41,122 nt of DNA from Gammaproteobacteria bacterium (GTDB lineage Bacteria > Pseudomonadota > Gammaproteobacteria > JACCYU01). Positions 922-5,751 of this stretch are shown here, piece after piece. A program made the position numbers and the translations under genes. Location: positions 1 to 41,122 of the forward strand of contig JACCZW010000144.1 of NCBI GenBank assembly GCA_013695765.1, in the 5' to 3' direction. The notes beneath the pieces were generated by a model, which was not told where the DNA came from, searched no databases, and saw only the letters and a list, made by a program, of their open reading frames with translations. Position 1 is the stretch's first letter. Each line of letters begins with the position of its first letter.

Positions 922-2103
<1,182 letters not shown>

Positions 2104-2128
2104 GCAAATTTTTTGCGCTATTGACAAA

Positions 2129-2144
2129 AGACGTCTGGACGTCC
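2129..2144. promoter_or_regulatory. Twin 8-bp palindromes before the methyltransferase
   Basis: Two adjacent 8-bp perfect palindromes, AGACGTCT (2129-2136) and GGACGTCC (2137-2144), share the core GACGTC and abut with no spacer. They lie in the 52-base gap between the bioF and methyltransferase starts, directly after a TTGACA (2121-2126) and directly before the AGGA ribosome site. The position suggests an operator, or target sites of the R-M system itself used for self-control; neither is proven. Confidence 0.4.
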
Positions 2145-2155
2145 AGGATTCCTGC

Positions 2156-3337
2156 ATGGCAAAAAGTCACGCAAGATGTTCACCGGGGCAGGTTCGCGAT
2201 GCCATTTTTCATGTATTGGCCGATGCTACGAAGGCATTGTCCGTAAAAGAAGTCGAGCAACAGGTTCAGCAAATCATCGGCCCCACGCCAAGTTCCTCTA
2301 TCAGATCATATCTCAGACTGAACACGCCCGATCTTTTCGTGCGTGAGGATAGAGGGGTGTACCGCTTGCAAAAAAGCGCCGCGACGCGCATTCAGAACGA
2401 CCTACCTTCATTTGAGCCAGAGGAGCCGCCCTGCACGCTTGGCGATGTCACCCTGTTCCACGCCGATTGCTTTCAATGGCTTGAACAGCAGCCCGCGAAT
2501 TCTTTTCACGCGGTTATCACCGATCCGCCTTACGGCTTGCACGAATATACCCCGGAACAACAAGCGAAACTGCGGGTGGGTAAAGGCGGCGTATGGAGGA
2601 TTCCGCCCGCCTTTGATGGCCACAAGCGCTCCCCATTACCTCGATTTACGACTTTAACCGTAAACCAGATCGAGGAATTGCGTGATTTTTTTCTACTGTG
2701 GACGCGGTCGCTGTTACCGAAGCTTGTGCCGGGCGCCCATGTGATCGTTGCGTCCAATCCGTTGCTTTCGCACGTTGTGGCTTGGGCGCTGGCTGCGGGC
2801 GGTCTTGAACGGCGTGGCGAAATCATTCGCCTGACCATGACCATGCGCGGCGGCGATCGTCCGAAAGCCGCACACGACGAATTTCCAGAAGTAAGCGTAC
2901 TTCCACGGTCAATGTGGGAGCCTTGGCTTACATTCCGCAAGCCAATAGAAGGACGGGTTCAGGACAATTTGAGGAAATGGAAAACCGGCGGCTTTCGGCG
3001 GCCATCGCACGCCAAGCCGTTTGGCGACGTTATTCCCTCCGCACCGACTCGAAGCCTGGAGCGGGGACTTGCGCCGCATCCAAGCCTCAAGCCTCAGGCG
3101 TTTCTGCGCGAAGTAGTCCGCGCGTCCCTGCCGCTGGGAGAAGGAGTCGTACTGGATCCCTTTGCTGGCGCGGGGTCCACCCTCGCCGCATGCCTGGCAG
3201 TCGGCTACTCTGGGGTAGGTGTAGAAAAAGACGCTCACTACTTCAAAATGGCGTGTGAGTCCATTCCAAAGCTTGCCGCTTACAACGGAAACGGCTCTGT
3301 TAACGCTTGTATAGCCAGGTCTCTCGAAGTTTTCTAA
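2156..3337 (+). CDS. Type II DNA methyltransferase, beta class (DPPY)
   Basis: A 393-residue SAM-dependent DNA methyltransferase. Catalytic motif IV, TDPPYGL, comes before the SAM-binding [14 protein letters not shown] motif near the C-terminus; this order defines the beta class, with the target recognition region in between. DPPY points to adenine N6 as the usual product, although cytosine N4 enzymes share the fold. The first ~80 residues (about 10-75) resemble a winged-helix domain of the HARE-HTH kind (SVKEVEQQV ... VYRLQ). The ATG at 2156 has AGGA eight bases upstream. Its 3' end overlaps the convergent nuclease gene by 38 bases. The pair interrupts the biotin genes, which suggests horizontal gain. 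Recognition sequence unknown. Confidence 0.9.
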
Positions 3338-3901
3338 TTCCTTCTTTGTGTAGTGTTGCGGTTCTGGTGCCGAGTTCGCTGCGAGCGTTCTTGCGAAAAT
3401 CCTCCGTAGTCACCCGCCCCAAATAAACTTCTGTAAACGCCATTGGCAGTCGGGCGGACGCCGGTTCGGTTTCCAGGTCCAGCTGATACACGAAGACGCA
3501 CATCCATTGGTTGCGCGCGCCGTGCGTGTCGACCGCACCGCCACGCTTCCTCGTCGTCTTGATTTCGATGCCTTCCACGCCTGCTTTCGCGGCATTGCTA
3601 GGATAAATGCCTTGCACAACCAGATCAGGATGTCCATTGAAGTAAGTATTCTCCGTCAGTGCTCGCGCATGTTTGGCTAAGCTTGCGGTAAGCATGTCGG
3701 ATAGCACTCCAGACATAATGGCGGGGCGCAACATATCGTCCAGACGCTGCAAGCCCTTCCCAGTCAGATGGCTATTTACATCAAAAAGAAGTCATAAACG
3801 TCCTGAAGTGCTAGCTGGAAATCCTCCAGTCGCAGTTCATACGGCATCGCCAAAGCGTGGTTGAAAGCCCGATGGTTGACCGTGTTCTTTACAATCGGCA
3901 T
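3300..3901 (-). pseudogene. PD-(D/E)XK restriction endonuclease, frameshifted
   Basis: Likely the nuclease partner of the convergent methyltransferase. The catalytic core is visible as GHPDLVVQG followed about 20 residues later by GIEIKTTRKR, a PD...EXK arrangement. The reading frame is broken: an ATG at 3901 opens MPIVKNTVNHRAF..., reaches LEDFQLALQDVYDFF, then hits TAA at 3776-3778. The sequence resumes one frame over as FDVNSHLTGKGLQRLDDM and runs to the stop at 3300. The frames join smoothly if one base is restored in the A5 run at 3783-3787 (T5 in the mRNA), giving about 200 residues. This could be a disabling deletion, a sequencing error, or slippage. A TTG at 3752 could start only the distal part. 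Confidence 0.75.
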
Positions 3902-3919
3902 TGTGATGGGCCGTATGGG

Positions 3920-4711
3920 TCAGCGAGCAAGATCAACTCGCTCGTATGCGGCTTTCACCAGGTCACCACCGTATTTCCGCTCCAGGCGCCGAATTACGAA
4001 ATGTCCGCGCGCGATGTCCTGGTAGTGGTCGATAAACAGCACGTTGACGAACGCGCCGCCCGCGGCGCCGATGACGGGGATGGCCTGCGCGGCGACTTTT
4101 TCCGACACGACGATGCCGAAACGCGAAGCGATCTGTGCGATCACCCTTACCAGCGCGGGCGCGCCCTGGTGGGCGACGCCTTTTTGCGCGATGTGCTGGG
4201 CCGCCTCCGCCAGCACCTGCTGCAACGCGGCGCGCACCGCGAAATAGCCGGTCTCGGTGGCGTCGTCAGAAGTCGCGCGGCCGCCCAGGGCGAAAACTTC
4301 CACGCACGCGAGCTTCGCTGCCGGCGTCGCGATCAGTTCGCCTTCGCTGCGCGCGACATCCGCGATCGAGCGCAGCATCACCATCGTCGAAATCGGCAGT
4401 TCCACCGGCAGGCCCGCGAGTCCAAACGCGCCGCCTCCCGCGCCGGTGCCCGCCACGACGAGCTTGTGAAACAGGTTGGACGGCGGGCGCAACGCGCGCC
4501 GATCCAGGCTCGTGACCGCCAGCTGTAACGCTTTTTCAAGCGCCACGCGCGTCGAATGGTTAATTATCTCCGAGGCCGACGCGGGCAATAATTTAAGCCC
4601 CCTTTCGATCGGCGTGCCCAATGCGTTCGCGATTCTGGCGGCGAGACTCGGGTTCTCCAGCAACGCTCTGGCATCCCTTAAATTTTCCAGATCTTCGTTG
4701 GACAGGTTCAT
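3920..4711 (-). CDS. EcsC family protein
   Basis: A 263-residue member of the EcsC family, named after a Bacillus protein encoded beside an ABC transporter; the biochemical role is not established. The middle (about 90-130) is glycine- and alanine-rich with two hydrophobic stretches ([26 protein letters not shown] region), and a second hydrophobic segment lies near [22 protein letters not shown], as in the family. The ATG at 4711 overlaps the bioB stop as ATGA, so it is very likely translated by coupling to bioB; an in-frame TTG at 4747 is less likely. It ends 18 bases before the start of the nuclease gene, so the three may share a transcript. Confidence 0.88.
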
Positions 4712-5751
4712 CGTGGCAAACGCTTTAGACCCCTTATCGTGTAGCAATCGGGGGCGCTCGCGGGTCCGGCGCTCAACCGCTTAAGGCCTAAACGTTCGAA
4801 CAAACGTGCATCGCTGTCGGTTTGCGGATTCGGGGTGGTAAGTAGTTTTTCGCCGTAAAAAATCGAATTGGCGCCCGCGAAGAAACATAGCGCCTGCTGC
4901 TCGTCGCTCATGCTCGTGCGCCCGGCTGAGAGCCGCACGATGGATTTCGGCATTAAAATCCGTGCTGCCGCAATAGTGCGCACGAATTCGAGCGGATCGA
5001 AGCTGGCGGCATCAAAAAGCGGTGTGCCTTCAACCCGCACCAGCAGGTTGATAGGCACCGACTCGGGATGTTGCGGCAGATTGGCGAGTTGTTGCAGCAG
5101 GCGTGCGCGATCGCGGCGCGATTCGCCCATGCCCAGGATGCCTCCACTGCACACGCTCAGACCTGCGTCACGGACGTGCGCCAGAGTGTCCAGCCGATCC
5201 TGGTATACCCGCGTGGTAATGATATTGCCGTAGAATTCCGGCGATGTATCGAGGTTGTGATTATAGAATTCGAGCCCGGCCGCTTGCAGGCGCCGTGCCT
5301 GGGCCGCGGTCAGCATGCCTAAGGTGACGCAGGTTTCCAGTCCCAGCGCCTTGACCGCGCGGACCATCTCGATCACCTTGTCGAGTTGCTTGTCGGTTGG
5401 ATTGCGCCAGGCCGCTCCCATGCAGAAGCGTGTCGCGCCGCCAGCCCTGGCCGCTTTCGCGCTCGCCACAACATCGTTCAGCGGCAGCAAAGGTTCGCGT
5501 TTAAGCGCGGTGTCGAAGCGTGCGCTTTGCGGACAGTAGCCGCAGTCTTCCGGACAGGCGCCGGTCTTGATCGATAGCAAGGTGCTGATTTGTATGGCAT
5601 TGGGGTCGTGATGCTCGCGATGAATCGCGTGCGCTGTGAACACTAGATCGTTGAAGGGGCGCGCTAGCCACGCCTCGATTTCATCAACACGCCAGTCGTG
5701 GCGGACAGCAGGTCGATCGGGCGCCATCTGAATGGATATTTGCTGGCTCAT
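4708..5751 (-). CDS. bioB: Biotin synthase
   Basis: Radical-SAM enzyme that inserts sulfur into dethiobiotin to make biotin, using a 4Fe-4S cluster for SAM cleavage and a second FeS cluster as sulfur donor. The radical SAM cysteines are C66, C70 and C73 ([10 protein letters not shown]). Downstream are the [12 protein letters not shown] and GGILGMGES segments, and [22 protein letters not shown] near the C-terminus. At 347 residues it matches the usual length (346 in E. coli). The ATG at 5751 follows a GAGG ribosome site. It is divergent from comF, and I found no clear BirA operator in the 117 bases between them. Confidence 0.97.

Follow-up and report, generated by a model that had tools for sequence, protein, structure and literature searches.

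A mobile, Type II-like restriction-modification islet between ecsC and bioF, with a probably self-controlled amino-methyltransferase and a broken nuclease reading frame

The EcoRII, SsoII/Ecl18kI, ScrFI and MspI methyltransferases (MTases) are C5-cytosine enzymes, and the C proteins carry an Xre-type helix-turn-helix (HTH). For EcoRII, SsoII/Ecl18kI, ScrFI and MspI it is established that the MTase represses its own gene by means of an N-terminal HTH (PMC3874152, PMC12707154), Ecl18kI being encoded by a divergent locus (PMC3874152). CfrBI and LlaDII are controlled via methylation of sites of their own that lie within the promoter of the MTase gene (PMC3874152), and C proteins typically activate their own gene and that of the nuclease (PMC12707154). 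The restriction-modification (R-M) islet described here is similar to the EcoRII, SsoII/Ecl18kI, ScrFI and MspI systems in that an N-terminal HTH is found on the MTase and an operator overlaps the MTase promoter, but it differs from them in having a beta-class amino-MTase, convergent genes, a winged-helix/HARE-like domain and a nuclease gene that lacks the operator. With the C protein-dependent systems the islet family shares an operator in the promoter and a small HTH regulator, a stand-alone protein of 71-74 residues in loci L133-L135; the domain of the islet family is, however, of a different type, adjoins the MTase only and is mostly fused to it. The islet is set apart from known R-M control by its enzyme class, domain type and convergent layout, by a nuclease that is in no catalogue, and by an operator of extreme constancy.

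The window, namely the whole stretch of 41,122 nucleotides that was analysed, is contig C144 of a draft genome of 3.13 Mb (164 contigs, 99% complete). On its minus strand are found bioF (922-2105/2157, TIGR00858), ecsC (3920-4747, PF12787) and bioB (4708-5751, TIGR00433). Between ecsC and bioF lie the gene of a DNA MTase (2156-3337, plus strand) and, convergent to it, that of a nuclease (3901-3300, minus strand), which overlap tail to tail by 38 nt at 3300-3337, a length that recurs identically in 12 of 79 relatives, with a median of 13 nt. The bioF gene probably starts near 2104 rather than at 2157, because this is where sequence homology to the same-genus genome sets in; with such a start, the MTase and bioF genes are divergent and approximately 50 nt apart. 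At the other side, only 18 nt separate the ecsC stop from the start of the nuclease gene on the same strand, so that the latter may be read together with the bio genes, judging from its position.

Neither the same-genus genome (G001) nor one of the same family (G002) contains the MTase. In the former (locus L003) 87 nt without an islet separate bioF, which is 89% identical to that of the window, from ecsC, and in the latter bioF, ecsC and bioB are consecutive. Homology to the 87-nt empty site ends near 2102 and restarts near 3940, from which it follows that the whole inserted islet spans approximately 1.84 kb (2103-3940) and that the final codons of ecsC have been altered. At 3920-3941 the end of ecsC is indeed replaced by the insertion, its last residues being unlike those of the same-genus copy. 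No terminal repeats or target duplications were found at the islet borders. The preliminary description of this DNA had proposed that a convergent MTase-nuclease pair with 38 bases of tail overlap splits biotin genes lying on one strand, that the MTase is intact, and that the locus should be compared in relatives that have or lack the islet; gene order and strands agree with it, the MTase reading frame is uninterrupted, and the nearest genomes do have empty sites, with an unbroken bio run in both. Elsewhere in the window, a 49-nt stretch (84-132) is 100% identical to positions 739-787 of L003 and resembles the 3' half of a tRNA, from the anticodon-loop CTCATAA through CCA, with no whole tRNA being called there.

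The MTase consists of 393 residues and exhibits the beta-class motif order, TDPPY then DPFAGAGST. The DPPY and DPFAGAGST motifs, with core residues invariant in 69 members, are those expected of a Type II MTase. Profile matches were obtained with PF01555 (1.3e-13) and PADLOC MTase_II (6.6e-104), and the catalytic part of the structural model (pLDDT 76) matches CcrM (2.9e-13), M.BceJIV, M.MboIIA and M.RsrI. The protein is, therefore, a beta-class N6/N4 amino-MTase, an assignment within which N6-methyladenine and N4-methylcytosine formation are not separable, and does not belong to the C5-cytosine class of the known dual-function MTase repressors. What it has in common with the latter is an N-terminal HTH domain, which corresponds to residues about 10-71 (2183-2368, plus strand), is modelled as a winged helix made of three helices and a beta hairpin, yields weak HARE-HTH matches in 8 of the 69 members (best value, 0.012) and is the proposed operator-binding repressor domain.

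The MTase promoter (2121-2149, plus strand), as aligned with 84 related loci, is formed by TTGACA (2121-2126), a 17-nt spacer and a -10-like box, CAGGAT (2144-2149). The latter is weak with respect to the family consensus TATANT, which explains why a generic promoter scan made no call here. The operator, GACGTC-TG-GACGTC (2130-2143), lies in the spacer between the -35 and -10 elements, and thus overlaps the promoter as in dual-function repressor systems; it is found only once in the 3.13-Mb genome. The same arrangement of TTGAC, a spacer with GACGTC-NN-GACGTC and a -10-like box is common upstream of the MTase throughout the family. Sought as an exact pattern, which excluded nothing, the operator was present in 85 of 85 loci with the N-terminal domain, fused or separate, with all 12 hexamer positions invariant and the promoter boxes carrying approximately 1 bit per position or less. 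The domain was not detected in 16 loci, none of which has the operator; in six of them a contig end truncates the locus, so that 10 complete and informative loci remain (0 of 10). For the association between operator and domain, Fisher's test gives 1e-13 when the loci are treated as independent, a value that is overstated because they are related. On three plasmids of actinobacteria (L133-L135) a separate open reading frame (ORF) of 71-74 residues, located just after the same operator, encodes the domain; the operator is kept although these stand-alone proteins are only 40-46% identical. The MTase start codon is mostly 12-16 nt past the operator, so that the transcript should be nearly leaderless. 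No shared operator precedes the nuclease gene across the loci.

The operator goes with the N-terminal domain, be it fused or separate, and loci that lack the domain also lack the operator. The simplest reading of this co-occurrence is that the winged helix acts as the operator ligand, which is very probable, and that the MTase represses its own gene. The domain would bind the operator when the MTase is abundant, so that in a cell newly entered by the islet the MTase would be made at full rate at first and then be throttled, the nuclease coming up without dedicated control for want of the operator.

When 84,980 genomes were scanned with the C-terminal part of the nuclease, at least 140 matches were obtained, and the best 80 of 140 were retrieved. 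In these loci the C-terminal part is 73-80% identical and the pair is far beyond chance. A convergent MTase adjoins the nuclease in 79 of the 80, as expected of Type II R-M genes that travel together, the remaining locus (L092) ending with its contig. Most nucleases of the family contain 199-202 residues, and the per-column identity of the aligned members is 78% for the nuclease and 70% for the MTase. The hosts come from some 14 phyla, and the phylum label switches no fewer than 32 times on the nuclease tree; among 3,081 locus pairs, flanking DNA is common to just 27 flank pairs, and mobilizable plasmids also carry copies, among them 4.9-kb plasmids of Klebsiella and Citrobacter. No relatives of the nuclease were found in phage records; a few were found in IMG/VR contigs. 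The family is a widespread, mobile Type II-like islet in which no mobility genes are seen: the R-M pair of approximately 1.8 kb is self-contained and crosses phyla with a putative switch built in as a domain of the MTase. A frame break taken by itself is ordinary, and it is the family that is of wider use.

All annotated plasmid records examined that carry the nuclease label it 'hypothetical protein', and it matches no Pfam, NCBIfam or PADLOC model above chance, nor any solved chain of the PDB by sequence. Its structural model (pLDDT 89.5) finds its best matches in NaeI, EcoRV, BglI and SfiI, with modest scores (E from 5.6e-3 to 0.06, TM below 0.45), and the residues of the PD...ExK motif are invariant in 73 aligned relatives. 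Thus, in spite of the lack of sequence similarity to these PD-(D/E)XK enzymes, the protein is predicted to be an EcoRV/NaeI-like member of the group, with the fold and active-site motif expected of a Type II nuclease.

In the window copy, 39 family-like residues are encoded from the ATG at 3901 (N-terminal part, 3783-3901, minus strand) and a stop follows two codons on; the family sequence resumes at about 3788 in the next frame and runs to 3300 (C-terminal part, 3300-3788, minus strand). An earlier claim that the gene is readable over approximately 200 residues only with a frame correction at the A5 run is, therefore, correct. The break (3781-3788) is in this homopolymer run (3783-3787), at family residue 39-40 or so of 200, in the helix formed by residues 25-48 of the AlphaFold model of a relative and exactly within the conserved stretch QDVYDFF-x-DVNS of the aligned relatives. 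All the catalytic residues, namely P-D (Asp codon at 3624-3626) and E-x-K (3564-3566 and 3558-3560), lie past the break, in the C-terminal part, the first in-frame start codon of which is the TTG at 3752, so that a truncated product would miss the first quarter of the protein. The nuclease is in one frame across this position in 80 of the 80 closest relatives, which makes the break private to the window copy; one of them (L063) has an in-frame stop in an N-terminal extension, upstream of the break position, and a later start is possible there. As read, the window copy lacks the intact nuclease of a Type II R-M system, a consensus error at 3781-3788 being possible.

Taken together, these data are best accounted for, with a probability of about 0.75, by a horizontally acquired two-gene Type II-like R-M islet whose MTase is self-controlled via the operator and whose nuclease frame was lost early in the gene, the loss being very recent or else confined to the consensus sequence. 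The window copy would then have lost the nuclease frame ahead of the catalytic residues and be left with a self-controlled and probably active MTase. The 'decaying system' of the preliminary description is retained as far as the islet, the intact MTase and the broken nuclease frame are concerned, and not with respect to decay: 114 of the 115 conserved columns are unaltered in the window nuclease, while intact relatives differ at 0 to 6 of them, and the gene has no further stop beyond the break and has diverged to an ordinary extent (median nonsynonymous difference, 0.189; rank 46 of 64). Given that nothing besides the break is decayed, the loss is very recent or only apparent. The same features, along with an end branch that is long (0.46) yet within the family range, make it unlikely that the system has been relaxed and orphaned for a long time, with a dead nuclease and an MTase kept for a host role, even if an intact MTase with its operator beside a broken nuclease gene is what such a history would leave. 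Programmed -1 slippage yielding a low level of nuclease, which had also been considered in the form of slippage at the T5 run, is very improbable: the break does fall in a T-run of the coding strand, but there is no canonical heptamer, and none of the 80 relatives, all single-frame, carries it.

An error in the consensus of the draft metagenome-assembled genome (MAG) as the origin of the break, with the nuclease intact and the system fully active, has to be taken seriously, although the odds are somewhat against it. From the sequence, a very recent loss and a one-base consensus error fit the nuclease equally well, and the latter agrees with a break that falls within a homopolymer run of a gene otherwise free of decay. 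A5 is, however, a short run, and approximately 32 kb of other coding sequence of the window contain no clear second broken gene when compared with the same-genus genome, there being only small indels near gene ends, so that the local error rate appears to be low; the frame-change matches initially returned by this comparison turned out, on inspection, to be shadow or antisense frames or gene ends. A mirror case is offered by a planctomycete MAG (L048, 4492-5633), in which the MTase is frame-broken and the nuclease intact. If literal, and with an active nuclease, such a break would be lethal; it is probably an assembly error, which points to errors in MAG consensus sequences within this R-M family and is the reason why single frame breaks in such loci are not taken at face value.

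With respect to the operator, binding by a host factor, or a sole role as methylation target with no part for the HTH, would be in keeping with the invariance of both hexamers and with GACGTC being a palindrome of the restriction-site type. It is nevertheless improbable in view of the fact that the operator follows the HTH domain, fused or separate, across about 14 host phyla and is absent without it. A more tentative extension of the self-controlled islet is that GACGTC is both its own recognition site and the operator half-site, and that MTase output is set by whether the operator is methylated; although doubtful, such a dual role would explain why 12 of 12 hexamer positions are invariant when the HTH diverges to 40% identity. 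The winged helix would read, and the MTase mark, two own sites within its promoter. A GACGTC specificity exists in AatII/ZraI, and M.AatII and M.ZraI are approximately 331 residues long, as is the matching PADLOC MTase profile. A literature search on GACGTC R-M control or AatII/ZraI homologues returned nothing useful. Avoidance of GACGTC was considered as proof of a recognition site and rejected, since the host flanks (observed/expected, 0.82; rank 24 of 64), the window (0.81) and the islets all showed none. A likeness to CfrBI/LlaDII-type control is possible if GACGTC is the recognition site of the islet, to which the lack of avoidance also applies. The operator is in any case constant enough to serve in locating and annotating more copies, and may itself represent the recognition sequence.

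Related MTases are found beside different and longer same-strand ORFs in L134 (4006-4929; 307 residues) and L136 (4182-5252; 356 residues); the 34% match of the 307-residue ORF of L134 to the nuclease suggests that longer nuclease variants may exist. The Acidiphilium plasmid pACMV5 (L124, 742-1628) carries a distant pair, with 34% identity in the nuclease and no GACGTC operator, in which a separate annotated HTH regulator is encoded upstream of the nuclease, and is a different control solution within the same wider family.
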